A stretch of DNA of 64,000 bases, taken from positions 69,278,552-69,342,551 of the forward strand of contig NC_092524.1 in assembly GCF_037038585.1 (NCBI RefSeq). The letters are read 5' to 3'. How positions within the stretch are numbered: position 1 is the stretch's first letter; each line of letters opens with the position of its first letter. A program made the position numbers and the translations under genes. A model generated the notes under the pieces. That model made no database searches, had not been told where the DNA came from, and worked only from the letters and a program-made list of their open reading frames with translations. Of the stretch, positions 10,601 through 50,911 are shown one piece after another. The DNA comes from Patagioenas fasciata. Lineage: Eukaryota > Chordata > Aves > Columbiformes > Columbidae.

Positions 10601-13600
10601 TGAAGCATTTACGTGTTTGGGTATATTTCACTTTATTAATCAATCGTGGTTTTTAGGGGAAGTTTTTCCTAGAAGACCCTACAGGAGTCGTCCAGCTAGA
10701 CCTTAGTAAAGCAATATCCTTTTTCTGTGATGAAGTCATTTCCTATGGGCCTGGAGAATGTGAAATTGAATAAGAGACCCATTCTGACCATTGGAAAATA
10801 TGTATTGAGAACTGCAGCTGTTTTCCCTTCTTTTCCAATGGGTTGCTGCAGCTCAGTGCCCTTTCACCTTTTGGCCAAGGTCGGTTTTCCCGTTTGGAGA
10901 AGCAGACGTGTCCCTGTTTGGGGGGTGTTTGCTTGGCTCTTAAGGCAGCCTCTGAATTTTCAGTAGCGTCCAAATGTATCACACCACCTGCAAAGCAAAC
11001 ATGGGCTAAAGAACTAGTTTAAGAAATATATATTTCTTAACCTTTCCGCACCAGTTCCACAGTGGTTTATACACTGAATCCTGCTTTGTTCTGGCAGAAG
11101 GTAAAGCAGACTATTTTTCTTACCTTGTAATAAGTTATTCTGTTAATGGGTGTTGCTGCAGTTACATGTTGATGAGGTTTGAGCATGAGTTTGGGACTGA
11201 GATTTTTGGCCATGAGTTTGATGAGTTTGGGACTGAGATTTTTGGCCATAAGCCTCCTGTTTTACACCCTGGGGTCTGTAGGCAGAGAACAGCTCACAGC
11301 AGAACTTGTGATTTTTAGTGGTGTCGCTGGGACGTGGGTATCTGTAGCAGTTTTGAGGACTGGCCTTAGTCAGCCTGGCTCCACCGCACGCGAGGAGACG
11401 TGACTAGATTAGGAAGACAGACTACAACAGCCCAACAGGATGATTTCACAGGCTGAAAATGCTGCTTTCTGTTGGCAGAGCTTTGGTCCTTCAGAGGCTT
11501 GGTGAGTCTTCTCATTAAGACCGTGGAAGGGCTTGTTTTAGCAAAACATGGGCATGTTTTAGCAAAATGACGGGCGTTTCAGTTTGTAGGTTATTACTCT
11601 GTGCAAAATACACTATCCTAGTGTATTTTCTTATAATATATTATAGATTTAAAATTTGTAAGATAAACTAAATAGTCAAGATCAAGAATGATAATGCAGA
11701 CAAGTATCACAGAGCAGTAGAATCACTTTGGTCAGAAAAGACTTTAAGACTATCAACCCCAACCATTAATAGTGTTGCTATCCAGCTGCTTGAAGGACGA
11801 TGCTTGATCTCAACAGAAAACAGGGCTTTTGTCTGGAAAGCTTTTAATACCATTCCACACAAAATTTAGGTTCAATGCTGGCACGTCCCCTCCGTACGAA
11901 ATTTTAGAGCCTCTATTATGCAGAATATTTAAACTGCTTTTAACTTCATGATGCCAAGGAGCATGTATATTCATTTATGTGAGCTTCAGCATAGGTGAAA
12001 CTACGACATTTGTCCACATTCAAGTCGGAATCAAAGAAATAAGTACAAGAAAGGAGCTGAACAGGGCCTTCATACTGATAGGATCCAGGGATTAAGCTTT
12101 GGGGTTGATTTTTTGTGCTGCTCTTCTGTTATTCTGAATACAGGGTAGTGAAAAAAAATCTATGAAAGTGGGTCCACGGGGCACGGAGGGGGCTCAGTTT
12201 TATCACTAAAAGTGATTCACCTTGAGAGCTGAATTCATTTCAGCTGCAGCGTCTCCAGAAAAGGTGCAGTTTGATGGACACTTCTAGGGCAGGGTGGCAA
12301 AAATCACTCCTGTTCCCCTACATTCTTATTGGGTTGAGAAGGTTCTTTGTGTGGCTGTGCAGCAAATCTATTCAAAGAAGTGACCAAGGTAAAAAACAAC
12401 AGTTGTTTTGTCGCTCAGCCTGTTTTTCAGCCATAGATCCCTGGTTTGGTTCGGTGCTGTTGCAAGGAGGGATGGGTGGACCGGCTGCCAACCGCCTGAC
12501 TAACGTCAGATGTTGGTAGAAATAACAAAAGGTTATTCTGTTGTTTAAAAATCCCTCAGGTTGGTACGAAGATGAAGTTTTTCATGTGAACGCTTTTGGA
12601 TTTCCGCCTACTGAGCCTTCTGCCACCACGAGGTATAAAACCGGCTTTCCGCAGCCTCGCTCTGTGTTTTGTTGTGGGTTTCTAAGCACGCACGTTATTA
12701 TTTTATCATTCTGTGACATTAAAGCATGCTGTTCTGCCCCTCTCCAAATGCTTCCAAATAAATACAGTTTTAAGGAAGCAATTCTGGGCCTTGCTGGTCT
12801 GCTTGGACCAGGACTAAAGCTCGTAGCATCAGCAAAACCCTTCCAAAGGCCCTTGGGTTCTGCATGTTAATAACAACTGAGATCGAAACCCTTCTCATTT
12901 GCAAAACCAGATAACTTTTACATGGGAATAAGAAATTCCTTGTTGCTCTAAGCATGGATTTGGGAAAGAACCCAGGATAAATGTTACCCTGAGACGAGCT
13001 GTTAAATTAGGGAAGGGCAGCGCCCCTGCTTTATATCTGAGCGACTGCTGTTTATTTGTTTCTCCATAAAGTTCCAGATGATTATTGATACCATCTGAGC
13101 CACTTCTCATAATAAAAATAATAATTAAAATGGCTCTAAGTGAGTCATAATTGAAACTACTAACGATTCGGGAAAGAAACAGAACTAACGTGAGTATTTT
13201 ACTGATGTAGAGCCTTCTATGGGAATGTGAACTTCTTTGGAGGGCCTTCTTCAGCTTCAGTGAAGGCTTCTGCAAAACTGAAGCAGCTGGAGGATGAAAA
13301 TGAAGATGCCATGTTTGTGTTTCTGTCTGACGTCTGGCTGGACCAAGCAGAAGTACTGGAAAAGCTGCACACGATGTTTTCGGGTAGGTCAGAGCCGCTT
13401 TGACTCCGAGCCTTGGGTTTTGAGGGTTTTTTCCCATTTTTCATAGTGCTTTGCAGCGCCGACGGGTGGAACAAGGCAGCGTGATGGCTGCGTGGCCTCC
13501 GGGGACACCGTGGTGAGAAAATTTCCTGCAGAAAACTTATCGCCTTTGTTGGAGAATGAGTTTTATGCTGGTTTAGCTCCGTGAACGCCTCGCGGTGGAG

Positions 13601-22117: not shown

Positions 22118-22217
22118 GCCGCCATCTTGTTTACTATCACCATAGCAACGACATCGGCCGGGCGGCAGCCGCCATCTTGTTTGGCGTCTCCACAGCAACG
22201 AGCGCGGCCGGGCCGGA
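22118..22217 (+). promoter_or_regulatory. DNAAF2: Tandemly duplicated 50-bp DNAAF2 promoter module (YY1-like + X-box-like)
   Basis: There are two ungapped copies, 22118-22167 and 22168-22217, each starting GCCGCCATCTTGTTT and ending near GGCCGGGC. Each has a YY1-type site (AAGATGGCGGC on the minus strand) and, at the same internal position, an RFX X-box-like site: ATCACCATAGCAAC at 22136-22149 and GTCTCCACAGCAAC at 22186-22199. The X-box consensus is GTNRCCNNRGYAAC, and each copy has one mismatch. RFX factors and FOXJ1 drive motile-cilia genes, which fits DNAAF2. The ATG follows 3 bp after the second copy. Confidence 0.8.
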
Positions 22218-22220
22218 GTC

Positions 22221-25200
22221 ATGGCGGGCCCGGGGCGCCTGGAGGAGCTGGAGCTCAGCGCCGAGGAGGCCGAGCGGCTCCAACGCGCCTTCCGCGACGA
22301 AAAGTTCCGTGCGCTGTTCGCCGAGTACGCGGCGGAGCTGACCGACCCGGAGCAGCGGCGGCTGTACGAGGAAGAGGTGGCGGCGCTGGAGCGGGAACGC
22401 GGTGTGGAGGTTCGCTTCGTCCATCCCACACCGGGCTACGTGCTCCGCACCAGCCAGGCCGGCTCCCGCCGCTGCTACCTCAACATCTGCAGCAACCCGC
22501 ACATCGGGGAGCCGCGGGCGCGCCCGGAGCCCGGCGGCCAGCGCTGGTCGCTGCCCTACAGCCTGGCGCCGGGCCGCGAAGAGCTGGGCCGCGGCGGCCA
22601 CCGCCGCATGGTCTACGACGTGGTTTTCCACCCGGCCGCTCTCCGCCTGGCCGCCCGCAGCGCCCGGTTCCGCCGCCTGCTCAGCGACACGGCGCTGGAG
22701 GCCGTGGAGCGGCACTGCTCCGTGCAGCTGGACCGCGCCAACGCCGCCGTGCTCCGCCGCGCCAAGTACAAGGGCGTCCCGCAAGCGCCCGTCATCCGCA
22801 CCCCGCTGCCCGGCGGCGCCCCCGCACCGCCCGCCGACCGGGATTCCCCACTGCCGCCCTTCCCGGCCCCTCCGCCTCCCGCCGCCCCCCCGCCCGCCGC
22901 CCGCGACTCCCCGCTGCCGCCCGCCGGCCCCACCACCCCGCGCTGGAGCATCCGCCACCGCTCGTACGTGGACCTGCAGGACTATCGCTGCTCCCGCGAC
23001 TCGGCGCCCAGCCCGGTGCCGCGGGAGCTGGTGGTGACGGTGGAGCTGCCGCTGCTGCGCTCCGCGGCGCAGGCCGAGCTGGAGATCCGCGGCCGGGAGC
23101 TGCGGCTCGACTCGCAGCGTCCCGCCTACCGCCTGCGCCTCCGCCTCCCGTACGACGTGGACGAGAGCGGCGGGCGCGCCGCCTTCAACAAGGCCCAGCG
23201 GCAGCTGCAGGTCACGCTGCCTGTGCTGCAGCGGCCCGGCCCGCGGGAACACACGGGAACGGGCGGGGAGCGGCCGGAGGAGCCCGGTGCTGAGGATCCC
23301 GCCGAGCCCGGGGCCGAGCCCGGGGCGGAGGGTCCGGCCAAGCCCGGTGCCGAGGATCCCGCCGAGCCCGGGGCCGAGCCCGGTGCCGAGGATCCCGCCG
23401 AGCCCGGGGCCGAGCCCGGTGCCGAGGATCCCGCCGAGCCCGGTGCCGAGGATCCCGCCGAGCCCGGGGCCGAGCCCGGTGACGAGGATCCCGCCGAGCC
23501 CGGGGCGGAGGGTCCAGCCGAGCCCGGGACAGGGGAACCCGTCGATCCCGGTGCGGACGGTCCGGCCGACCTCGGGTCGGCTCCTCCCCCGGTTCCCGCC
23601 GAGCCGCCCCCGCCCCGCTCCGGCGCCGCTTCCCCCGCTCCGAGCGCCAGCCCCGAGCCGGCCATGCCCAGCGGGGCCGCCCCTCCGTCCCCCCCCGAGA
23701 GCCCGGCCACAGGGGGCAGCCCTGGCGAGGTGACTGTTGCCTGGGGCTCCAGCAGCCCCGGGGCCGCCATGTGCCCCCCGTTCCAGTGCCGGCAGGACGA
23801 GGCGTCGCTCACCCTGCTCCTCCATGTGCCCGGCATCCAGCCCCACAGCCTCAGTGGGGACGTGGGCACCAACCACTACAGCCTGCGCTTCTCCACTGAC
23901 ACCGGCACCTTCACCCTGTTCCTACAGTTCCCTCCCGCCAACAGGCTGCTGTCCCCCGAGACCTGCGTGAGCGTGTCTGCCCACAACGCGGTCATCACGC
24001 TGGCCAAGGCCGCCGGCAGCGCCGGGCCCTGGGAGAAGTTCTGCTTTGGCCTCGACGCCTCCGCTCTGCAGGTAAACGGCTTGGAAATGGCTCCCTGGCT
24101 TGTGCTGCTCGGATCCCTGCGCGAGTGGTGGCTCAGGGAGGTGTCAGGTTATCGGTCTGAGTTTGGAAGGAGTTGGTAGTGATGGAAACCACTTCCCGAA
24201 GGGGAAGGTGAATGACCTGATTGGCGCTGGTCTCACAGGAGCATCACAGAGCTGACGCCTTCACCGTAGAATCATTTCAGTTGGAAGAGACCCTTAGGGT
24301 CATCGAGTCCAACCATAACCCGTCTCTAGCACTAGACCATGTCCCTAAGAACCTCGTCTAAACGCCTTTTAAACCCCTTCAGGGATGGTGACTCCACCAC
24401 TGCCCTGGGCAGCCTGTTCCAATCCTGACAATCCTTTCTGGGAAGAAATTGTTCCTGATATCCCATCTAAACCTTCCCTGGTGTAACTTGAGGCCATTTC
24501 ACTTGCTGCTTCTGCTCCAACCTCCTTTCAGGCAGCTGCAGAGAGCCAGAAGGTCTCTTAACAGCCTTTAGGACCATGTAAATCGCTCGTTCGCACGAAG
24601 AAGAGAGATGTTTCAAACACACCAGAGTACACACGTGTGTGCAGTGTCAGGGTGGCGTGTTGCTGTGGCTGCATTTGAGGACAGAATTCCCGCGTAGAGC
24701 TGGAGGAACACGCGTTAGTTCAGCCAGCACACAGCAGCTGTGCACTGCTGCCCGTTGCCGTTTTGCCAGGCTAGTTCTTCCTCTTTGTGCCGGCCTGAAC
24801 ATGATTCTAGTTGAGAGGATTTATTATTTTATGGGCCTTTGGGCAGCGATGTTCCCTGCGTGGCACATCTGAGAGCTGCCGGTGTCCCCGCAAAGGGACT
24901 GTCACCGAGGCACCCCGATGTTCGTTTAAGGGACAACAGGGTCCAAAACAACTTTTATTAAACCGGTGAGAAACAGGGTTTTAGCACTTCAAAAGTGACT
25001 TAAATACAGGTTCGGATATCAGTTGAGGGAAATTATGAAGGGGCAGCAACTAATACAACAGGCGGTCCACAGAGTGCATGCACATGGCTTCACCAAAACA
25101 ATGCCGGAGCCGTCCCTGAGTCCCGGAGGAGCCCACACTGCATGAACACGGTGTGGGGTTATTGTAAAGAGATACATGCACTTGTAGTGAGTACGGAACG

Positions 25201-28200: not shown

Positions 28201-31200
28201 CAAGAACAGCTCGTCCCAGAGCGTCCTGGTTATGGCAGAGCTGGGAAACGGCTGAAATCACGGCTTTGTAAAGCGGCATCTTTTAGTGTTTGATCTCCTG
28301 GGGTTAAATGCTGGGTTCTTAACAGAAATAAACCCCGGGTTGCTGGTGGGTGTATCTGAACTGTGAGGCTTGGAGCCTCGTTGTGTGAAACGTTTGGGGG
28401 ATAATGAATTCTGCCGGCCGTTTGGGGTCATGCGTGCTCGTTTTCATGTGATTTAGAGGAAAAATTGGTTGGAGTAATGATTCCCTTTGGTATAGATCCA
28501 CACCCTTCCTGCCCTGCTCAGCGGACTGGATGACGTTCTTCGCTCTCCGGGGTTGTTGGGTTGCCCGTCCCTTTTGTATTATAACAAAACCCCACGTTCT
28601 GTCATGGAGAATATGAAGATTTAACAACATGAACCCTCCCAGAGAACAGCAGGGAGCAATGTTTGCTTTACTATGCATTGAGATGATGTCTTTATTAACA
28701 TTTACATTATACTAAACAGTATGGTTTGAGCTCAGCCTGAGTCGCGCTGTTTGTGAGGATGGCTTAACACAGGGAGTTTTAGTTGTCTTTACAACAGAGG
28801 GGCTGGCGGACTTTGTAATTAATCCCCTCATTCATTATCTCATGGAATATTTGGCGTGTATGTGCTGTCCGGTCTGTCTTGAGAAGGCAGGGTTATAATT
28901 TTCAATTTCCAAGCTACTATAAGGAGTTAATATCATAGTTAGGGGTCACTGTGCCAGAAACGAGGACCTTTGTGCTTTATCCTACAGCAGTTTATTTTTG
29001 GTCCCATTAATTCTGCGCTCAGGACTCTTGGCGAGTTTTTGGGAGGTCAGAAGAGGACGGAAAAGGAGAACAGAACAAACTTATTGTCTGATTTATTTTT
29101 TTTTGGAGTAATCTCTTTCCCAAACTACTTTAAGAACCATAATTAGTTTGCTTCCGCTATACAACAAACTGATTTCTGAATAGCCTTTAACTGGTAGATG
29201 CGTTATGGGAATAACGTACTTAAAAAACCAGTTATGTCAGGAAACATGATGAAGCTCATGAAAGCTTCTCTTGAGCTGTTTAATCTTTGCAGGCATGAAA
29301 ACCTTATAAAAGCCTTCACCCCCAGTACAGGCACAGTACAAATAACCCTGGATGGCAACTATGTGTAAAGTGATAGAGAACGAACTATTAATATTTGAGC
29401 ATCAAGGGCATCGTGTGGACAGGAACCAAAGTCATTCCTGCTAACGTTTGTGTTCATTTGCTCTCAGTTCAGTCACAGGGAAAAACCAATGTGGATCAAA
29501 CAGCAGATGACAGTATGTGTGGGGAAAAACAAATTTACGTCTAAGTTGCTAAGAGAGTATCATAAATACCAGAAAATAACCTGTTTGAACGGAAGGATTA
29601 TTTCCCAGGGTCACTGCAATCATCTGCAGATGCTTGTCCTTTGCTGCTCTTCCAAACCAGAGCAAACAGGCTTTAAAATAAATTCCTGAACGGTGTTTTT
29701 GCCAAGGTCTGTGCTTTGATAACATCTGCAGCCACATAAACGCCTTGGTGTCTACTCACGGTGAATGCAAAGGCTGAGCTACAGCGGCTGGCTGGGCAGG
29801 CTAATGATAATCATTATATTGATAACGAACAGCGCCGCTTGTGCGGTGCCGTGATTTATGGCAGCCCACGGGGTAGCGCGGTGCTGAAATTTTAAACGCT
29901 TGCTCGAAATGTAAGCGTGGAGCTCTGGGAATGCGGCGTTGGCGTGAAACCCGGTCCAGTTGGTTTGGAGTAATTAGTCAAAACGATGGGAACATCATGG
30001 CGAGCGGTTACTTTGTATCCTCCTGTAAAATATCCTCCGGTCGCTTCAGACAAAGCGATCTAAGGGTGCGATGTGCAATGTTTAGAACGAACAGAAAGTT
30101 TTCCATTACCTGTTGGCTTTTCAAGCATCTCCTCTCCCCATTCACAGAATCCCAGAATGTGAGGCGTTGAAGGGCCCTGTAAAGCTCATCCAGTGCAATC
30201 CCCCCATGGAGCAGGAACACCCAGCTGAGGTTCCACAGGAAGGTGTCCAGGCGGGTTTGAATGGCTGCACAGAAGGAGACTCCACAACCTCCCTGGGCAG
30301 CCTGGGCCAGGCTCTGACACCCTCACCAGGAACAAGTTTCTTCTCATATTTAAGTGGAACCTCCTGTGTTCCAGTTTGAACCCATTGCCCCTTGTCCTGT
30401 CACTGGTTGTCACCCAGAAGAGCCTGGCTCCATCCTCCTGACACTGCCCCTTTCCATATTGATCCCCATGAATGAGTCCCCCCTCAGTCTCCTCTTGTCC
30501 AGCTCCAGAGCCCCAGCTCCCTCAGCCTTTCCTCACACGGGAGATGCTCCACTCCCTTCAGCATCTTGGTGGCTGCGCTGGACTCTCTCCAGCAGTTCCC
30601 TGTCCTTCTGGAACTGAGGGGCCACAACTGGACACAATATTCCAGGTGTGGTCTCCCCAGGGCAGAGCAGAGGGGCAGGAGAACCTCTCTGACCTACTGA
30701 CCACCCCCTTCTAACCCACCCCAGGTACCATTGGCATCCTGGCCACAAGGGCCCAGTGCTGGCTCATGGTCACCCTGCTGTCCCCAGGACCCCCAGCTCC
30801 CTTTCCCCTACACTGCTCTCTAATAGGTCATTCCCCAACTTACACTGGAACCTGGGGTTGTTCCTGCCCAGATTCCAGACTCTACACTTGCCCTTGTTAT
30901 CTTTCACTAAATTTCTCCCCGCCCAGCTCTCCAGCCTGTCCAGGTCTCTGATGGCAGCACAGCTTCCAGTGTCACCACTCCTCCCAGCTTGGTGTCACCA
31001 GCAAACTTGCTGACAGTCACTCTATTCCCTCGTCCAAATAATTGCTGAATATATTGAATAATACCGGCCCCAGCACTGCCCCCTGAGGCCCTGCACTGGA
31101 TCCAGGCCTCAACTGGACTCTGCCCCATTGACCACAACTCTCTGGTTCTTCCCTTCAGCCAGTTCACACTCCACCTCACTACCCGGTCACCCAGACCGCA

Positions 31201-34200
31201 CTCCCTCAGTTGAGCTGTGAGGATGTTGTGCGACACTGTGTCAAATGCTTTACTGAAGTCAAGATAGACCACGTCCACCGCTCTGCCATCATCCATCCAC
31301 CTCGTTATGTCCGCATAAAAGGCGATGAGGTTGGTCAAGCACGACTTCCCCTTGGTGAAGTGATGTTGACTGCCCATAATGACCCTCTTATCCCTGATAT
31401 GCCTTGAGATGGCACCAAGGAGAAGCAGTTCCATCATTTTCCCAGGGAAAATTCCTGTCCTGTGGTTTCTTTAGTGGTTCTGCTGCTTATGAACACGAGC
31501 AGGGTCAGGGACCAACTTTGTCAAGAGCAGAAATGCGCAGCAAGAGAATCCTTTTGCAAAAGGCTTATGCTCTATGTAGACAAAATAATTTCAGCAGAAA
31601 AAGAATTGTTTTTCTCGTTTCATATGGGAAAAAGGAGGCAAAGAGACTTGTTCATAGTCTCACTAGTCCGGGAGAGAGTGTTAGAGGAAGATTGCTGGGC
31701 CCTAAAACTCATAGTGGTTCTTTTCCCAAGTGGATTTTGGGGATCCTGGAGGAGGAAAAACAGCAACACACGCTGCCCTCTTTTTTTCGTCTGCTTTTTC
31801 TTCTTTTTCTCCAATCACTTTTCATATGATGATTTCCAATTATTTAAACGGTGGAGAAATAGGACGCTCTTTTATTTTTCCCATACGGATTTTCCTTGTT
31901 TCGTTTTTAGGAGGGCGGTTCCATTCCGTCCCTCGCCGAGCGGCATCTGCCGTGCATGAGGCCACAGCCCCAGGGGCCCAAAATGTGCAGAGTTGCCTTT
32001 TCGCTTCTCAATCCACCAAACGTCAGCGAGAACTGAATTTTGCTTCTATTGGGATGGCAAGAGGGTAGAACCGGACCGAGAAATTCAGGAGTATGACTTG
32101 AAGGTTTGCAACTTCTCCCTGCTATGTCCCACTAAACAGTTAATTGTTAATCAGGAAAGGTCATGAACATAATAGTGCTCTAGGTTAGAGCATTTTTATT
32201 GTGCCAGCGTCTGTCCTTTCCCACAGCCTACAGTGGATGATTGAGGAAGAATACGAGGGCAGGGCAAGCTCTGTAATTCTTATGAAACGGCCCCTCCAGG
32301 ATATATTTTAGGACCTTTAATTACCTGCGACTGATTTAAATCTTTCAACCTGTAGCAACATGTTTCGCGGTGTTTGTGAACCGCTTACTAACGGCCTCGA
32401 AACACGTCCGGTCTTTAACCTGGACACCTCTCTGCTGCTTCCAGGGCGGGTTTACGCTTCTCTCAATGGATGTGACGTGGATATTGTCTTGTGAGCTTTG
32501 TAGCTTTTGCTTTACAAAGTCTGATCGTGAAGGCTGAGGGTTCAAAGATCCTGCGGTGACAGCGCAAGGAGACACTGAACTGTTGGTGCAAATCATTCCT
32601 CGGGGGGACTCAAAGTCTCTACATGAGTCACCTATCAAAAGAGAGAAAATCCATTTATCTATGTGTGATGCAGGTCTGTACTTTAAATTGAAGTCGGCTA
32701 AAATTGAGATATGAGTGGTGTGAAACTTCTGTTGCGAATCAGTGTCCCGGCTTTGCAGGGAGTTTGGTGCTCCCTGAAGTAAAGCACAAAAAGAACATAA
32801 CCCTCTCTTTCTCTTCTCCAGGAAAGACTGTTTGTCAGTGAAGAAAACGTTGATGGATTCCTAGGCAGGGTTTCCTGTCCTTCCTCTTGCTCCCAATCAG
32901 CGCTGGAGAGTCAGCCGTTAATTGAAGTGCTCGGTGTTGCTGAGGACAGAATGCAGATGAGGTTGCAGGTGAGGATCTCCCTGGCACTTGTATGAACTGA
33001 TTGATGTTCTCCAGCGAGATCGTATCAAATCCGACCAAAACGCCTTTGTTCCTGCTTTGTCTTGATACAGCAGGGAAAGCGGTGGAGTTGGGGGGTATTT
33101 GCACGTCTAAATGTCAGTTTTTAGAAACATAAGTTCACATTTGTCCCATTTAATGTGACCGTGGGATTGAAGCCTCCTGTATTTCGTTGGGAAGATGGAG
33201 AAGTGCGGTATGTTAAAGGTGCTGCTTCCTCCGTGCAGGAATACGGCATGGTACGGTATTAAAAGAGAAAAACAGACTAAATAACGACCTAGTGTCCCTC
33301 ATTCAGCCCCAAGTGCCTTCAGGTCAGAGCTGATGACCACGTGCTGCAAAACCATGGCAGATGTCATCAGAACAGAACCAGAATAAAGAACTGAAACGTC
33401 TCTGACCTTCAAATACTCAAAAGTTTGGCTCCATGTATGGTTAAATCGCACCGTCTGTTGCACAAACACTTCTCCAGGTCCAGAGCGAGCTGACCTGGAG
33501 GGATTTGGGGATTTTGGGTGCTGGGAGCAGGCATTGGAAAGGGATCCCAGGCCGGCTGTGTCCGCGGGCTGGCACAGGGTACAGTGACCTCCCTTTGCAA
33601 AATCGGAGATGGACAGATGGAGAAAGCAAAACGTTAGTTTTGTAAAGGGGATTTCTCGGTAGACGCTGCATTAGAAATTCATTTAAAAGTGTTCTTAAAG
33701 ATAGATAACACACCAGGACAATGAGGTTACTTCTGTGGCCCTACACTGAGACTGTACATACAGTAAATGTGTAGAGGGCTCCTTGGAAAGCAAGTTGAGG
33801 CAAAACAGCGACTTCTGCAACTGTGTTGGAGTTCACCCTAAAGATGCCAGCTCCAGCATTGCTTAACTCGTGTAGCTGGTGTGGATTGTACATAAAAATG
33901 TAAAATGTTGTTGTTGGAGAGCAAACGTGGATGTTCTGGTACCTGAGAAAGGGAGGCTGAGGTGTCTTAACTCGCACGTTCATGTGGGAGGATCTCCCAG
34001 TGCTGAGGGGGATGTACTGGTGTTTCTTTTGGTTCTGGCTGGAGGGAGCGGTGGTTTTGGGGTCAGAGGGGCTGGGGGTGTGAGGGCGACTCAGCCTTTG
34101 GATCCATGAATCCAGCCGAGATGCCCCCCCGATGCTGACCATCCATGCCAGGGACGCACGAGTTACCGGCTGGTTTTTGCTAAAACGAATGGTAAATTGG

Positions 34201-35128
34201 GAAATTGCTCTTTAGACAGCACCGGGTCTCACCGTTCATCCCGAGTCAAACCACAAGTCCTGCATTCACTCCCTTAGGCCGAGTGAAGAATGCAGCTCGC
34301 TCCCCAGCCACCCGTTTCGCACACGGCAGGGCGGTGATTTCCGTAACTGCGAGGTTCAAACGCATTCATTGCAAGGAGAGCTCAGATCCCTGGGCCGGTT
34401 TTGTTCCAGCAAACAGCCTGGGTGCGGTGACTCCGCTGTTAATCACGGCCGAGCTCGGCGCCGTTTCCTACGGCACAGGAAACCTCGGGAGCCAGGGGGG
34501 GTCAGGAAAACCTCAGCACGGCGCTGACTCGGCTTTCGGGGGTGGCTGTGGGAGGAACAGGCACCCTGTCCTGCCTTTCCAGCAGTTAGCGCGTCCAGCC
34601 CGTTCCAGCTGTAAAACAAAGCGTTTCTTTTCTCGACAGCCGCAGGAAGCAGCGTGCTCTGGACAGGGTGGAAAACAAGAAGAACTCAGCAGCTCAGGAG
34701 GGGATCTCGCTGGAGAGACAAACGGTGACAACCCGCAAGCAAACGCAGAAACAAACTGTCCGGCGGCTGATGCAGACAAAGGAGAGCGCGCTGCAGAAAC
34801 CAGCAGAACTTCCACATCTCCCACACCAGCTGAAACAATAGGAAAAGTGGGTTGTAGTTCACAGCATTGTTCGCAGCCTGAACCTTCTGACACCAGTTCA
34901 GCGCTTCCTGGAGAACGTGGGAGAAAGGAACCGGGTTTAGAAGGTGCTGCTGCAGAATCAGAACAGGCAGGAGGGGACGGGGATGGGGACGGGGATGGGG
35001 ACGGGGATGGGGACAGGGGGGTCCTGCGGGAGCTGAACCCACAGGACGGGAGCGTGAGGATCCTCGGGGACCACACCACGCGCTGCCCGCTCGCCTTCCA
35101 GAACCCTCTGCTCTATGAATTAGACTAG
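22221..35128 (+). CDS. DNAAF2: Dynein axonemal assembly factor 2 (kintoun), 3 exons
   Basis: This is a cytoplasmic HSP90 co-chaperone of the PIH family that preassembles axonemal dynein arms for motile cilia. Exons: 22221-24071, 32822-32968 and 34640-35128 (TAG), all phase 0, giving 828 residues against 837 in human. The PIH1 N-terminal domain covers about residues 10-190 ([31 protein letters not shown]). A first CS/p23-like domain is at about 266-336 ([20 protein letters not shown]). A Pro/Ala/Glu/Gly repeat is at about 353-437. A second CS-like domain is at about 515-617 ([34 protein letters not shown]). Exon 2 reads [14 protein letters not shown]...PLIEVLGV, as in human. The conserved C-terminus is [20 protein letters not shown] then NPLLYELD. 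Exon 1 is extremely GC-rich. The open frame running on to 24179 is intron read-through; the GTAAAC donor at 24072 ends the exon. Confidence 0.96.
23277..23530 (+). repeat. DNAAF2: In-frame minisatellite in DNAAF2 exon 1
   Basis: The repeat encodes shuffled units of GAEDPAEP and GAEP from 12-, 24- and 36-bp modules (GATCCCGCCGAGCCCGG, GGCCGAGCCCGGTGCCGAG). It makes an acidic, proline-rich linker of about 85 residues between the two CS-like domains. All units are multiples of 3, so copy-number change keeps the frame. It also yields a long spurious open frame on the opposite strand. Confidence 0.93.
24264..24585 (-). mobile_element. CR1 LINE fragment (reverse) in DNAAF2 intron 1
   Basis: It starts at the reverse-complemented tail (GTAGAATCATTTCAGTTGG), followed by TCATCGAGTCCAACC, the GACTCCACCACTGCCCTGGG block and CCAACCTCCTTTCAGG. 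It is of the subfamily also seen at 51.4, 52.7 and 63.4 kb, but older. Confidence 0.88.
24919..25740 (-). repeat. CACGTG-rich compound tandem array, possible old solo LTR
   Basis: From about 25200 to 25640, units of 25-30 bp alternate (ACACGTGCAAATGTGCAYGG and ACACGTGCTTGTATTAAGCA, joined by CGGAAAGTT). A longer AGGAAAAYACACYCGCGATT unit is embedded at least twice. At least six CACGTG palindromes occur. Read on the minus strand, the array is followed by a TATTTAAG box (about 25000), AATAAAAGTTGTTTTGG (about 24950-24965) and a CA end near 24919, with the matching TG on the plus strand. This layout (enhancer repeats, TATA, polyA signal) suggests a solo LTR. Family and outer boundary are not recognised. 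The plain-repeat call is firm; the LTR call is tentative. Confidence 0.5.
25741..30142 (+). other. DNAAF2 intron 1, mostly unique sequence
   Basis: I see no exon, RNA gene or clear repeat. About 25750-26040 is GC-richer and could continue the adjacent repeat. 26750-26770 has a CR1-tail-like AGAATCATGGAAT but no CR1 body. Confidence 0.55.
30143..31450 (-). mobile_element. CR1 LINE, longest copy in window (reverse, FAGD subfamily)
   Basis: The reverse-complemented tail is at 30143 (TCACAGAATCCCAGAATG). The body extends about 1.3 kb, to AGTTCCATCATTTTCCCAGG. A 176-residue uninterrupted minus-strand frame (30907-31437) is reverse transcriptase: [58 protein letters not shown]. It is 5'-truncated; ORF1 and the endonuclease are absent. 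It lies in DNAAF2 intron 1, antisense to the gene. Confidence 0.95.
31451..32821 (+). other. DNAAF2 intron 1, 3' part
   Basis: This is AT-rich unique sequence. Nothing was recognised up to the pyrimidine-rich acceptor CCCTCTCTTTCTCTTCTCCAG (32801-32821). Confidence 0.6.
32969..34639 (+). other. DNAAF2 intron 2
   Basis: This is unique sequence. The last 430 bp stay open in the exon 3 frame, but the acceptor TTTCTTTTCTCGACAG and the match to human place the exon start at 34640. Confidence 0.65.
34976..35017 (+). repeat. DNAAF2: GGGGAYGGG hexamer/12-mer repeat encoding (Gly-Asp)n
   Basis: GGGGATGGGGAC is repeated about 3.5 times in exon 3, giving a GDGDGD run just before the conserved DNAAF2 C-terminus. 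It is in frame, and the G-runs could form a G-quadruplex in the coding strand. Confidence 0.9.
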
Positions 35129-37410: not shown

Positions 37411-38739
37411 TCACTGAAGTCTGCGGTAACTTTTACAGAGTTCGTGGTCCCTAATATCTCCCCAGCCTCCGTTTTTGACGTGAGGGGACAGGGGTGCCAT
37501 GGAGTACCTCTTACTGACACTCATGGTTTCGGGAAACAGGTACTGTTGGTTGCTGTTCAAGAGAGAGTCGATTTTGGCACTCTGGGTGGCCGGCCTGCAG
37601 GTTTTCTTGTGGTGCATGCCGCAGTCCCCCGTGTGAAAAACCCTGGGGATTTCGGGAACCAGCACTTTCCAGAACTTTGGAAGACAAGAGACAGTCAAGT
37701 GCTGCAGAGTCCAGTCCCAGTTGTAGTCATCGTAGGTGCAGAAGGCGTCCGTGCACTCGATGAGCTTCTGGTAGGTGTCTCTGTCGAAGGCCATGCCCAT
37801 GTTGTGCTCGGTGGACTTCCACGTCTTCATCTCCACCTTGTCGGCGCGGCCGGCGAAGCCGCCGCGGACCGGGCTGTAGGTGCCCAAGGACACGACCTGA
37901 CACTCGGGGCAGTCGCGCTCGCGCAGGGCCCAGAGCTTCTTGAGGACGTGGTAGAAGTCGGGCGCCAGGTAGTGATCCTCCTCCAGGAACAGGACGGGCC
38001 CCGCGTGCTCCCGCAGCGCCCGCACCCGCTCCCACACGAAGTGCAGCTTCCACCACCAGTGGTGCTTGGTCTGGGAGAAGCGGGCTTCGCGGTAGTGCCC
38101 GAACGAGTCGGGGAACTCGGCGTTGATGCAGCCCAGGCGCAGCGCGGCCGCCTTGCCCACGTCGCGGGGGCAGTCGCGGGGGTCGTGGCCCGGGAACTCG
38201 CGGGGATAGAGCTGGATGCTGAACGGGAAGAAGATCTGCAGCACCGGGCAGAAATCCACGGCGGCCGCCAGCCGGTTCAGCTCCTCGCTCCACAGGTCGT
38301 GGCTCAGCACCAGCAGCACGTTCTCCACTCCCGCCGCCCGCCGCAGCGACTCCAGCAGCAGCCGCAGGTGCTCGGCCCGGTCGTGCACTTGCACCACCAG
38401 CACCGCGTCGGCGGCGGGGCCGGAGCGCCCCGGGAAGCGCCCGGCGTTCCGCACCGGCTGGTCGAAGTTGAGGCGGTAAACGAGCGAGCGGTAACTCAGC
38501 GTCCCGTTCTCGGTGAGAACCGGCAGCGCCGGCGATGCGGCCGAGGCGTTCGCGGCGGGGCGGCGCGGTGGCGCTTCGCTGACCCGCGGCGGCTCCCCGG
38601 TGCTCCCGGGACCGCCCCGCTGCTGCTGCTGCTGCTGCCGCCTCCGCCCGCCGCCGCCGCTTCCCCACAACGCCAGCGCGCAAATCGCCAGCGCCAGCGC
38701 CAGCACCAACACCTTCCGCTTGTAGATCCGCAGCCGCAT
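37411..38739 (-). CDS. MGAT2: Alpha-1,6-mannosyl-glycoprotein 2-beta-N-acetylglucosaminyltransferase (GnT-II)
   Basis: This is a Golgi type II membrane enzyme that adds GlcNAc in beta-1,2 linkage to the alpha-1,6 mannose arm, converting hybrid to complex N-glycans. It has a single coding exon, 442 residues (human 447). I chose the ATG at 38739 because MRLRIYKRKVLVLALALAIC matches the human start MRFRIYKRKVL; the frame stays open upstream without another ATG. Features: a short cytosolic tail, a signal anchor at about residues 9-25, a Gly/Gln-rich stem with six Gln at about 35-40, NAS and NGT sequons, QTKHHWWWKLHFVWE near 221, the metal/nucleotide site EEDHYLAPDF near 250, TYDDYNWDWTLQ, and DCGMHHKKTC near 371. 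The C-terminus KNGGWGDIRDHELCKSYRRL is as in human. It is convergent with DNAAF2. Confidence 0.97.
   Translation of the reverse strand: MRLRIYKRKVLVLALALAICALALWGSGGGGRRRQQQQQQRGGPGSTGEPPRVSEAPPRRPAANASAASPALPVLTENGTLSYRSLVYRLNFDQPVRNAGRFPGRSGPAADAVLVVQVHDRAEHLRLLLESLRRAAGVENVLLVLSHDLWSEELNRLAAAVDFCPVLQIFFPFSIQLYPREFPGHDPRDCPRDVGKAAALRLGCINAEFPDSFGHYREARFSQTKHHWWWKLHFVWERVRALREHAGPVLFLEEDHYLAPDFYHVLKKLWALRERDCPECQVVSLGTYSPVRGGFAGRADKVEMKTWKSTEHNMGMAFDRDTYQKLIECTDAFCTYDDYNWDWTLQHLTVSCLPKFWKVLVPEIPRVFHTGDCGMHHKKTCRPATQSAKIDSLLNSNQQYLFPETMSVSKRYSMAPLSPHVKNGGWGDIRDHELCKSYRRLQ
38620..38637 (-). repeat. MGAT2: CAG trinucleotide run in MGAT2 coding sequence
   Basis: Six CTG triplets on the plus strand encode a Gln run in the stem region. 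I do not recall an equivalent in human MGAT2. Confidence 0.9.
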
Positions 38740-38853
38740 CCTTCCCGGCGGCGGCGGCCGCCGCTCCCGCCGCTCCCGCCGCCGCCGCCGCGACTGCGCC
38801 CACCGGCAGCGCGCGCGCCGCCGCCGCCCCACGCGCACACGTCACCGCACGCC

Positions 38854-42261: not shown

Positions 42262-45200
42262 TCACCCGTGACTCTGCAGGTACCTGTCGAGGAACTGGGA
42301 GTAGCAGTCCAGGGAGCAGAAGTAGCAGATGACGGGCGCTTCCGTACCTCCCATGTTATCCACCAGGACCACGGTGTGCGCGACGTGGTGCAGATTCATG
42401 GTCACCGTGATCTGAATGAAGCTGCTCAGGCAGGCGCTGCCGCACTGGCACGTTTTAGCCACTTCCAGATCCTCGCAGAGGTGAGAAGGAAGGAGATGAC
42501 AACCATAAGGGATTCTGTTGAACAAGAGGAGTGAGTGTGAATTCACTACAAAATTAACCGGTGTCGCTCAAACACAGTGACATGCCATATGCACCAGCTG
42601 GAAGAAAAAGCTTTTCTGAGATCACAGGCAAGAGAGACCTGAAATTTTGCCACTGGTTAGGAATTAAACACCACCTTCTAAGACAGTCACTAAAAACATG
42701 TGGTGATTTTACTGACCCCTAACTACCAAGGACCTCAACTCCAGAAGATACTGCAGCAAGAACCAGGTAGTTCACACAAATCATATCAGCCTGTATGACA
42801 GCAACAGAGAATTAGAGAATTAAAAAGAAGGTTAAGAATAATGAGACAACTGGGCACGTATCTGCTCTTCCCTCACATTAGCCAGAAGATCACTGTATTT
42901 CATTCTGGCCTGACAGCGTCTACAATTTACTGCTCACTCTCTAACGTGAAGAAGTGGTAGTGGTGTAAAAACACCGTATCCAGAGGAAGGAGATGCACCG
43001 AGCCTTTTTACAGTAGTGCTACCTCGCAGGAAATAAATTAAGGTTCTCCCACCATGTCAATAATGACATTCAGTGACAAGAACAAGAATTGCTGCTTCTT
43101 AAATTCGCAGCGGAGCGGCATTGTGTTTGGGGCACCAAATAAATCACTTCCCTGGAGCGCTTTGCGGAGCTAAGCGCCCAGTGTGGGTATCAGCGGTGCC
43201 TGGTGCTGCTCAGCTGCACGGAACAGGTCTCACTGACTCACATCCTGACTACACCTACATATCCCCAATTCCTTCTCCACACCATCATCCACACAGCCGA
43301 GATTCCTCTGGGTTTTTTTTCCACCACCTCGATTTTAGGACAGCCTTTTTTCCCCGTCAGATCAAGCGCAATCACAGCTCCTCTGGTACCTGCCCAGAAT
43401 GCTACTACAAAAATTGATTTCTAAACATTTGCTTTCACATCTTCCCTCCTGTTTTCTTCCTTTCTCGAGGTTTTCACAGCCTGTCATCACTCCTTTCTCA
43501 CTCTTTGTTAATTCTCACCTCCAGGATGTCAGACAGGATGTCTGTTGCCCACTTGTTAAACTTTTTCTTTTCCATTTAAGATAATCTGACTAATGTTGCC
43601 TCCTAATAATCACAGACCTGTGGGCACAGGGACTGTTTCCATCCCCCCCTTGTCTCACCGAGGCTCCTGGAGCAGAAAAAGCCTCTTCTGTTCTGTCTGA
43701 TGCAGATTTTTAAAGCCCACTACATGGGGCCAAGGGCTGGGTTAATCACCAGCTGTCCTTAAGTACTATGGCAATATAACTGAGCGCCAAAATCTCACAG
43801 CGTCGAGGGATTATATTCCCTAGAAAAATAAGTACGCCTTAATGTTTATATCAGAACCACTGCAATTTAGATAAAGTTGGGAAAGGAGGCATGTGGAGTT
43901 TAATTACTCCAATAAATCAGCAAGGTCAGAAGTGGAGCAGATTTGAAGCAAAACATCGAGCTCAGCTCATTTCCAGGGTGTGTCCTGCATACCTGCAGAC
44001 ACCTTTAGCACCAACTTCTGAGCGATTACCATGGATTTATGGGGCGCTCCCCACCCCCAAGGCAGGAATGGGCATAAAATGTCAATCAGGAACACTTCAA
44101 GTCTGTCCCTCACCCCCTTTCTGACTCTTTTCCATCTTCTTGCTCCCTTTCTACCCAGAAGTAGCAGCAACTGGTACCAGAAGGATCCCAGGCGTGGGGA
44201 AAGGGGAGAAAACAGGTAACAAACAGCAGCCTGGCAAAGTTGATGATCATTTTAAATGATCAATTTAAAATCACCTCAGAACTGGGCTTCTCTGCGTAAG
44301 ACAGAACGCTCTCACTCCAACATCAAAGGAAATTAAGAGCTGAAGGAAAACCCAAGGGAGGGAGAAGCCTGGAGTGGGTAACACCAACCCCAGCGTGATA
44401 TTCGCCCTCTGAGAAGCCACCTCGTGGTATTTTCTGACATTGCTGAGCTTGTGGAAGGTCCCACCTAAAGCAGAGGCAGACAGATCTGTGTCTAACTAGG
44501 AGCTGGGTGGCAGCAGGACACCTTCTGCCAACACACTAATCTCGCATATGAAGAGGTAGTGACAAGCTAATGGGTATTACATGCAGTTTAATGAACTTTA
44601 ATGGAAGCAAAAGGCAAAGGGCAACTCCTCAATACCAAGTGGTTCAGGGTAGGAGAACTGATTAACTTTTCCTACAGCTCGGCAAAAACATTCTGTTATG
44701 GTGTTCCTGTTTTGTGCACAAACAACATTTTGATCTATAGCTTTGCCTAAACGCTTCCAAGTCACCAGTTTCCTGCATTATCCTGTATAACAAAAGTATG
44801 ATTTTAGAAATGGAATGTAAAGCAACTTTAACCTTAGGGCTTTTAATAGCAATTACCACTGACAGGAAAAACCCAAACAGGTCAGGAAAGTTTAGACTGG
44901 AGAGGTTTGAAATGGAGCAGGTGCAGTGTGTACCCATGGGGCTGCTCTTACCTGTAATTGATGGTGGCTCTTGCAGCACATTCTAACAAAGTCAATGGTA
45001 TTTTCAGTTGTATGCTGGGAACAAGCGGGTTGGGCTGTTCAAAAGGATTCCCAAAGAGATCCAAGCTCTCCAGACAGAGTTTCCTAAAATCACTGGGCAG
45101 GAAAGGAAGTTTGTTTCGAGCTGCCGAGAGAAAGCGCAGATGATCTAACTGGCCAATCTTGAACGGCAACCTAATCAGCTCATTGTCGTCGAGCTTTAAA

Positions 45201-48200
45201 TTAATGAGTTGTCGCAGCTGGCAAAACTGAATTGGAAGCGCTTTGATTTTGTTTTGACTGAGGTCCAAGAACTGAAGAGATTCCTGAAGGGTGGAGCTGC
45301 ACAGAGCCCCACTGAACGACTCCAGGTGATTGTCGTGCAAAATCAGCTCCTGAAGACAGGTCAGGTCACCAATAGTGGCCGGCAGCTGCTTAATATGATT
45401 GTGACTTAGGTCGAGTTTTCGGAGTTTCTTCAAACAAAGCACCCGTGTGTCGATCCGAGCGAGTTTGCAGTACGAGGCTTGGAGGTGCTCGAGGGAGTAC
45501 GGGAAGTTTTTGGTGAGAGGATAGTCCCTTCTTGAAGTTATGATCATTTTGGTCTTGGGTTTCTCAACCTCCGAGGTCTTTGCCGGTACCAGAGCTGAGA
45601 GCGGGAGGGCTCCAATGTCGGTCCCCTGGTGAGCCAGTCTCACAGCTGAAAGGAAAGTCTTTAAATTGCTGGCATTTGCCTACAGGAAAACACAAATGCG
45701 GAATTAAAAGTACATTACTCTTGTGCTCATTGATACTGACACTTTTGGAACTATTTTGTATGTATATGAGGAGATGCAACTCAGCAGGGCAACGAAACGG
45801 GAAAGAACGTATTGATGTGCTGTTTGCAGTACTGAAGAGCAAACGGCGTGCGATGTGAATGAGAAGTTAGGAGCCCTCTGAACAATCCAGATCAAACAAA
45901 CCGCATCGCTTTGCTCAGAAAAGGAACAAAGCGCTGAATTCACAGCTGAGAATGAAGCACAGAAAAAAAAAAAGCCTGATGCACTGTGATCACCTGCAAC
46001 GCGATAAAGGGAGAGTTTATAAATACACACACGGGGAAATCGGAGATCTGAAACTTGAGGCGATTGTTTCTGAAGGTTACAAGGAAGGAAAAGGATGGAA
46101 GCTGAGGTTAAATTTAATACAAAGGTAGGTGGAAAGCGTCAAGGCAGGTTAAGTGAGTGCTTCTGCTCACACGCAGCTCTTTGGTCGTGCCAGCATCAAA
46201 CAGGAGGATAATTATTTGCAGTCCTGCAAACAACTAATTTTGTGTTAGGTGGGATACAACATAATGGCAATAAGGACAAAGAGTCAGATGAAAGGACTGT
46301 CAGATGACCTGTATTTTAAATAAAGGTCGGGAAAGCTGCGATACCTTTGTTGTACTGATATCATTAAGTTTTATGAATACCAGGGTGACCGACTGTTTCT
46401 CTTCTGAACACAGCAATGACCTTGGAGACTTCTGGATGCTGATGTCATATCAATAAAGGTCAAACATATTTGATTGCATCAGGAACCTGAAATGATCGTT
46501 CTCCTTAAGCATCCCATGCACATCTTTGTGATGCTCCATAACTACAGGCAGATTTCTCATGTTTCTGAGGGTAATAAATACCTAATTAAATTTGGAAGCA
46601 AGGAGAAAAAGTCCTCCCGATCTGTGAGGACCAAGTAAAATACATAACTACTTTAGAACTGAGTTACAGGCAGTATTTCTTTGATCTCAAAGCACGAGAT
46701 ACCTGATTCTTGTAGCCAAGAAAATAAGTTTAGGGGCTGTTCATGTGACTTCAAAATGAAAATACTTTGTGTTCTGGATCCTTGAGACAAACTTCCTCCA
46801 CAATCCCTTAGTAAAAGCAATGTAGTATCTGTAAACCCCGTTGCTGAGAAACCTTGAGTGTGTTGTGAAAAATACTAAGACACATCTAAGAAAAAACCAG
46901 CAAAGAATTAGTTGGAACTGTTCAGGACATAATTTTCTGCCCCAAGACTGAACTCTCAACCACAGAAAGAATGTCGGGAAAACAGGTTAATCTGCATTAA
47001 TGCCTTATAAATTCTGTTTCAGAACTAAATGAGCGATGACAAGGCAACCAGGGCTCACACGATTTCAGACCTTGTATGCAATGCAGCAGGCACGGGCTTG
47101 TTGCAGGAAAAGAAAAGTCCACAGTGACTTTATTATTTTTGCTGCAGGGCTGAATGCTCCAGACTGATGTTTCTCAACTTAATTTCTGCTGTGGCCGAAC
47201 GCAGCAAGTCACAGCGCCCGGTGGAGCACACACTGTGGGTAGCTGCATGCAATCGCTACATTCATACCTGGGAATTTCTCTTCTACAAAGCTTTTGTCCA
47301 TCCTTGAGAGTTAAGAAACCTTTCTGTAATGAAATTATTAAAGACGAGCAGAAGCACTACAGAAAAAATATCAATAAGCTCAAATTGGGTTTCCAGATTT
47401 GAAGCATTTAAGAGGAATATATATTATCACTGGCTTTTGAAGAATTTAGTGGATTTGTTCCTGGAGCCTTATGTTAAAAACACACAATGAGGATCAACTC
47501 TGGTCGTTATTTTAATTCCTCTTTCATTAGATTCGGTTGAGACTTTCTCTTCAGTCTAACAAGATCCTGGACTATCAACTCATACAGAAAACAAGCTGTA
47601 GTTTTTAACTAAATTACCACCCATACTGAATGTCTGCCACACAGTTTCCTTACAGGTCCTATCAAGGGTCTAAATTAGATCTTGTAGCACCAAGACACAG
47701 ACCTTTCTTCTCTAATTTGATACTACTTGTAGATCCTCTTACAACAGGTCTGCTGTTGTGCCTTTGTTCCAAGACAAACTATTTGACTTCTCATCCTTCT
47801 GCAGAAATGCTCAGAGTAAAGGATGTGAATATTTTGGATCTAAGATAATACATGTGAATTTTCCTTTTTACAAGACACAGAGCACATTTGCTTCTGACAA
47901 GAAGCAAGATACAGAGCACATTTGCTTCACCCCCCCCTGCCATAAGTGCTTTTTCTTTCTTGCTGGGTCACATTTGTTTTCTTTTCATTAAGCCACTGTT
48001 CTGAGCACAGATTAATTGCCCTTGTTTCTCAATTCCTCTTCTACAAGGCTACAAAAGATTAGTTGAACAGGCACAGAAAAAAAACAATCTACAAACTGAA
48101 CGCTGATGTGCGATGTTCTTTGGTGAGTTTAGCATTACTAAAAACACTTAATTAACAGCTTCCAAATATCATACGAATTCTAAATAAATACACTGGCGGG

Positions 48201-49473: not shown

Positions 49474-49485
49474 AGGTGGGTGCGC

Positions 49486-49702
49486 TCGGCGACACTCGGC
49501 CCCGCTCGGCCTCGCTCGGCAACACTCGGCTCCGCTCGGCCCCGCTTGGCAACACTCGGCACCGCTCGTCCCCCGCTCGACAACACTCGGCCCCGCTCGG
49601 CAACACTCGGCGCCGCTCGGCAACACTCGGCGCCGCTCGGCAACACTCGGCGCCGCTCGGCAACACTCGGCGCCGCTCGGCAACACTCGGCCCCGCTCGG
49701 CT
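49486..49702. repeat. 20-bp GC-rich tandem repeat upstream of LRR1
   Basis: About ten copies of CAACACTCGGCGCCGCTCGG and its CCCCGCTCGG variant occur, with the last four nearly identical. It lies 270-490 bp upstream of the LRR1 start, next to its CpG-rich promoter. Confidence 0.92.
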
Positions 49703-50545: not shown

Positions 50546-50612
50546 CGCGCTGGGGTGTTTTAGAGGCTCAGGAGGCAAAAGGCGGGCGCGGGAGCTGCCG
50601 GGGGCGCCAAAA

Positions 50613-50911
50613 GGAGCCCGCGTCTCTCTGTGTTGCCCAGGCTACGCTGCAGTGGCTATTCACAGGCGCGATCCCGCTACTGACCGGCACGGGAGCTTTG
50701 ACCTGCTCCGTCTCCGACCTGGGCCGGTTCACCCCTCCTTAGTCAACCTGGTGTCCCCCGGCTCCCCGGGACTCACCATATTGATGCCGGCCTTAGCGCG
50801 GACGCCCGCTCGGCATAGCGCACGGCAGCCCAGAACTCCTGGGCTCAAGCGATCCGGCGGGCTCAGCCTCCCGAGTAGCTGGGACTACAGGCACGCGCCA
50901 CCGCGCCCGGC
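50613..50911 (-). ncRNA. RN7SL: 7SL RNA (signal recognition particle RNA)
   Basis: The minus strand begins GCCGGGCGCGGTGGCGCGTG at 50911 and follows human 7SL almost throughout: TGTAGTCCCAGCTACTCGGG, GATCGCTTGAG, GTTCTGGGCTG, GTGCGCTATGCCGA, GGCATCAATATGGTGA, AAGGAGGGGTGAACCGGCCC, GACGGAGCAGGTCAAA, GGGATCGCGCCTGTGAATAG, CCTGGGCAACA. The length is about 299 nt, the same as human 7SL. A Pol III terminator (TTTT, plus-strand AAAA 50609-50612) follows immediately. Both the Alu-type domain and the S domain (SRP54/SRP19 binding) are present, so it is a complete gene and not an Alu. Human functional 7SL genes also map near RPS29 at 14q21.3, from memory. Confidence 0.95.

Follow-up and report, generated by a model that had tools for sequence, protein, structure and literature searches.

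A U12-type AT-AC intron in POLE2 of Patagioenas fasciata, as indicated by its splice signals and snRNA pairing

Introduction

U12-type introns, the substrates of the minor spliceosome, have the 5' splice site consensus [A/G]TATCCTTTT and the branch-site consensus TTCCTTAAC, and they are without a distinct polypyrimidine tract. Human POLE2 presumably belongs to the published lists of genes with U12 introns (U12DB, MIDB and IAOD).

In mouse, Pole2 was listed in PMC7312986 as one of the genes whose U12 introns are affected when Zrsr1/2 are mutated. A passage of PMC3584512 names 11-13 nt as the optimum distance from branch site to intron end for U12-type introns, and counts DNA replication and repair among their enriched host classes. 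Phase 0 is disfavoured among U12-type introns, according to a passage of PMC7367187. Depletion of CENATAC led to more retention or to the use of alternative major splice sites in 92% of A-type minor introns (PMC8280824), and blocking of minor-spliceosome RNAs led to exon skipping around minor introns (PMC8034651). Here, we describe an AT-AC intron of POLE2 in a 64-kb stretch of the Patagioenas fasciata genome (the window) and compare it with these systems.

Results

The POLE2 gene and its neighbourhood

A tblastn search with a human POLE2 sequence placed the exons on the + strand, over approximately 1.7-19.8 kb of the window; reading of the sequence itself located the short last exon. As shown in Table 1, the first exon lies just upstream of the window. 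The joined exons 2-19 encode 504 residues, which matched human DNA polymerase epsilon subunit 2 (PDB 5vbn_A, residues 24-526) at full length over 503 columns with 0 gaps and an E value of 5.1e-302. A script alignment of the product with this human query sequence gave 423 identical residues out of 503. The AT-AC intron is intron 8 of the 18 coding introns. Seventeen introns lie wholly within the window, and 16 of them are GT-AG and one is AT-AC. The 504-residue product was also searched against the genome (1.45 Gb, 359 contigs). All 14 genome matches (18 candidates scored; the count is a lower bound) belonged to this gene, and no retrocopy showing the spliced join was seen among them.

Table 1. 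Features of POLE2, of intron 8 and of the surrounding DNA (window coordinates unless another contig or locus is named)
Feature	Position	Strand	Description
POLE2 gene, exons 2-19 and stop codon	1687..20445	+	Exon table; product aligned to 5vbn_A
POLE2 exon 1	L004, 9104-9171, just upstream of the window		GT donor; encodes MEPERLRRRLSSAFRLRGLLLRA before DALKYLT
POLE2 exon 8	10657-10713	+	57 nt, last codon complete (phase 0); 19 residues
POLE2 intron 8	10714..11051	+	338 nt, AT-AC, phase 0, almost certainly U12-type
5' splice site ATATCCTTTT	10714..10723	+	8/8 to the U12 consensus at +3 to +10
Branch-site sequence TTTCTTAAC	11033..11041	+	8/9 to TTCCTTAAC; presumed branch A 11040 (or 11039)
3' splice site CAC (intron end CCGCAC)	11049..11051	+	CAG immediately after, 11052-11054
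POLE2 exon 9	11052-11100	+	49 nt; 16 residues and the first base of the next codon
PIH1 and PIH1_CS (DNAAF2-like) frame	22212-24176	+	Pfam; neighbour of POLE2
Tandem repeat	23280-23528	+	Units of 36, 60 and 96 nt, within the DNAAF2-like frame; encodes PAEPGAE-type repeats
Reverse-transcriptase fragment	30910-31467	-	Weak RVT_1 match, 28.6 bits, under the 29.6 cut-off
Open frame	34199-35125	+	309 residues; no Pfam match at E 0.001
MGAT2	37414-38748	-	Pfam; neighbour of POLE2
Leucine-rich repeats (LRR1-like)	44951-45676	-	Pfam; neighbour of POLE2
Minisatellite	49483-49701		GC-rich, 10/20-nt, about 10 copies of a 20-nt unit; open in several frames
Metazoa_SRP (7SL) RNA match	50612-50911	-	259 bits, model positions 1-299/299, full length
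Weaker U6atac match (L014)	G000:C1:203046000-203046109	-	57.8 bits, against 126.8 for L013

The order of the DNAAF2-like, MGAT2 and LRR1-like frames next to POLE2 fits that of the human POLE2 neighbourhood. The 7SL match lies about 5 kb away from the LRR1-like frame and is likely a 7SL gene; human RN7SL genes are located in the corresponding neighbourhood. The reverse-transcriptase fragment resembles a CR1-type element, in keeping with a bird genome. The remaining side features of the window are listed in Table 1.

The exon junction is fixed by the protein to within one base

Exons 8 and 9 joined encode 35 residues that align without a gap to human POLE2 (5vbn_A 193-227); the two other matches of the same search were designed repeat proteins, matched weakly and repeat by repeat. 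The sequence-only reading had placed the intron at 10714-11051, with ATATCCTTTT at its start, CCGCAC at its end and the branch site near the latter, and these coordinates and letters are correct. It had further held that frame and homology force this intron. When the junction was slid from -4 to +4, the POLE2 protein was unchanged only at 0 and -1; homology thus leaves two adjacent junctions to choose from and does not force the intron entirely, as the slide of -1 turns GCA into GCC, both Ala, with AA-CA ends. AT-AC was preferred over AA-CA because AT-AC ends and the consensus belong to a known intron class.

All junctions with GT, GC or AT donors starting at 10661-11000 and exon starts up to 11097 were scanned. 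Forty-nine of them preserved the frame and were free of stops: 18 AT-AC, 15 AT-AG, 9 GC-AG and 7 GT-AG. The AT-AC junction 10714-11051 had the top score of the 49 against human POLE2, with 251, while the best GT-AG and GC-AG pairs scored 232 and 230, respectively. Skipping of exon 9 (49 nt) or of exons 8 and 9 (106 nt) shifts the frame, and the first in-frame stop upon retention of intron 8 is at 10771..10773 on the + strand.

With one of the seven GT-AG or nine GC-AG pairs, the major spliceosome could remove the intron and leave a somewhat altered protein at the join. In the best GT-AG pair, 10735-11054, ISFFCDE is added to the protein and one Q is missing; judged by eye, the CAG at 11052-11054 could plausibly serve as a major-type acceptor. 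The sequence-only reading had expected a GT-AG gene model to misplace exon 9 or to drop its 16 residues; the loss of these residues is one possible error, and such a model need not make it. However, the donor at 10735 agrees with the major consensus at only 5/9 positions. A fair major-type donor, AAGGTCGGT at 10880 (7/9), is found inside intron 8, but it lies downstream of the in-frame stop at 10771. GTAAAG at 10706 reaches 4/9, and with the acceptor at 11054 it shifts the frame into a stop. A GT-AG or GC-AG reading would also make the U12 signals described below a coincidence. The junction scores, the weak donors and the pairing with U11 and U12 led us to reject both readings of intron 8, and we regard an intron of this kind as extremely unlikely.

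Intron 8 carries the signals of a U12-type intron

ATATCCTTTT stands at the very junction that the protein fixes to within one base. At positions +3 to +10, the other 16 introns agree with the U12 consensus at 0-4 of the eight positions, compared with all eight in intron 8. The branch-site sequence TTTCTTAAC, within which TTCTTAAC sits at 11034-11041, departs from the consensus by a single change, which forms a G-U pair with U12. The intron's last base follows the presumed branch A at 11040, the second A, by 11 nt, within the distance of about 11-13 nt of U12-type introns. In the region between branch site and intron end, 8 of the 10 nt are pyrimidines, a point against a class that has no distinct tract, but this stretch is short. 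The termini, AT-AC, are one of the two pairs, with GT-AG, found in the class. The other introns reach up to 7/9 at the branch site, in one case 14 nt before the intron end, and the branch site by itself therefore separates intron 8 from them weakly. Intron 8 is in phase 0, which was counted against the U12 reading.

The motifs by themselves are not rare in 64 kb; they are rare at the homology-fixed place. The decamer ATATCCTT was found once in the window (1.25 expected), RTATCCTT once (2.90 expected), and the branch site, when one mismatch was allowed, 47 times (63.7 expected). At the homology-fixed junction, the decamer appeared in 0 of 200,000 Markov draws, and the branch site (at most one mismatch, A 9-14 nt from the end) appeared at its fixed place in 0.10% of 100,000 Markov draws. 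Among 200 random windows, one strand each, 1.5% contained the decamer with branch site and AC, and 13% contained the looser combination of [AG]TATCCTT with branch site and AC.

CAG directly adjoins CAC at the end of intron 8, and the same minor intron might possess an additional 3' site three bases downstream (CAC|CAG), the use of which, as an AT-AG intron, would yield some mRNAs minus one glutamine. This would be compatible with the U12-type AT-AC reading. The AT-AG junction 10714-11054 keeps the frame and ranked third of the 49, and one AG-ended pairing also passed the scan for the 5' site and branch site. However, AT-AG combinations appear disfavoured, according to a passage of PMC3584512, and the human POLE2 chain contains the Q. 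We consider the use of this second site improbable.

Intron 8 pairs with the U11 and U12 of the same genome

The genome carries matches to minor-spliceosome RNAs. One U11, one U12 and two U6atac matches over the Rfam cut-offs were found, and these copy numbers are lower bounds as the best candidates were scored. One U6atac match (L013) reached 126.8 bits. The much weaker one (L014) is likely a diverged copy. The 5' end of U11 is AAAAAGGGC, and positions +4 to +11 of intron 8 pair with U11 nt 8-1. In this fixed register, intron 8 had 8/8 pairs (seven Watson-Crick and one G-U) and the other 16 introns had 0-4/8. U12 carries GUAAGGAAAA at nt 18, and the branch site, omitting one A, pairs with nt 18-25. 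Here, intron 8 again had 8/8 pairs and the other introns 0-7/8, a score of 0 being given without a candidate A 8-20 nt from the intron end. The duplex energy with U11 in a free register did not single out intron 8 among the 17 introns: it had -6.1 kcal/mol, with seven of the 16 others lower and one equal. The fixed register follows the established pairing, and it was chosen after this energy result and hence not blindly. U6atac (L013) contains AAGGA near its 5' end, the segment predicted to base-pair with TCCTT in the 5' splice site.

An AT-AC intron may also be of the U2 type and be removed by the major spliceosome. Such introns exist, and 85 of these or related subtypes were examined in PMC8280824. 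However, the class is defined by the 5' site and the branch site and not by the termini, in the wording of PMC3584512. That class would show a major-type 5' site and lack a U12-type branch site, and in intron 8 both sites are U12-type, with 8/8 pairing to each of U11 and U12. In chicken, AT-AC introns make up 18% of U12-type introns and 0.01% of U2-type introns (PMC7367187, Table 2). The U2-type assignment was rejected on account of both sites, and it has hardly any probability in our view.

Discussion

The intron at 10714-11051 is almost certainly a U12-type AT-AC intron, the eighth of 18 in POLE2, and very probably orthologous to the U12 intron of mouse Pole2. The sequence-only reading had proposed a U12-type AT-AC intron in POLE2, and it is supported by the agreement of the signals, the short distance from branch site to intron end, the pairing with U11 and U12 of this genome and the mouse listing. 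In minor splicing, a U11/U12 di-snRNP would bind intron 8, U11 by pairing at the 5' site and U12 by pairing at the branch site, and U6atac would then replace U11. Removal of intron 8 through a lariat would join SKA to QFH, and splicing in this species is expected, from the sequence, to depend on the minor spliceosome. If splicing failed, the 20th codon of the retained intron would be a stop in frame with exon 8, and therefore full-length POLE2 would not be made.

A term search found POLE2 absent from the main text of PMC8280824 and PMC8034651. In a search on POLE2 and minor splicing, PMC5538549 and PMC6787000 used the terms in unrelated places, and no literature was found under DNA polymerase epsilon together with minor introns. 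Because AT-AN minor introns are an inefficient subtype needing CENATAC, as stated in PMC8280824, intron 8 could conceivably be a rate-limiting valve on POLE2, which would tie the supply of polymerase epsilon to the activity of the minor spliceosome and CENATAC and contribute to the phenotypes that minor-spliceosome disease shows in replication and growth; this is a speculation that we think unlikely to hold. The result is of value for annotation, as gene finders restricted to GT-AG will misplace the junction of intron 8. It is also a further example of a connection already known, that of DNA replication genes with minor splicing.

Intron 8, the only U12-type AT-AC intron among the 17 POLE2 introns examined, is real, ordinary and of an already known kind, and its gene is already listed with a U12 intron in mouse. 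It shares its host gene with the mouse Pole2 U12 intron of PMC7312986, the main text of which gives neither intron number nor termini; the two introns are very probably orthologous in position. With the vertebrate U12-type AT-AC class, as described in passages of PMC3584512 and PMC7367187, intron 8 has the 5' site, the branch site, the 11-nt distance and the AT-AC termini in common. Nothing essential differs from that description, and phase 0, in which intron 8 lies, is under-represented in the class (PMC7367187).
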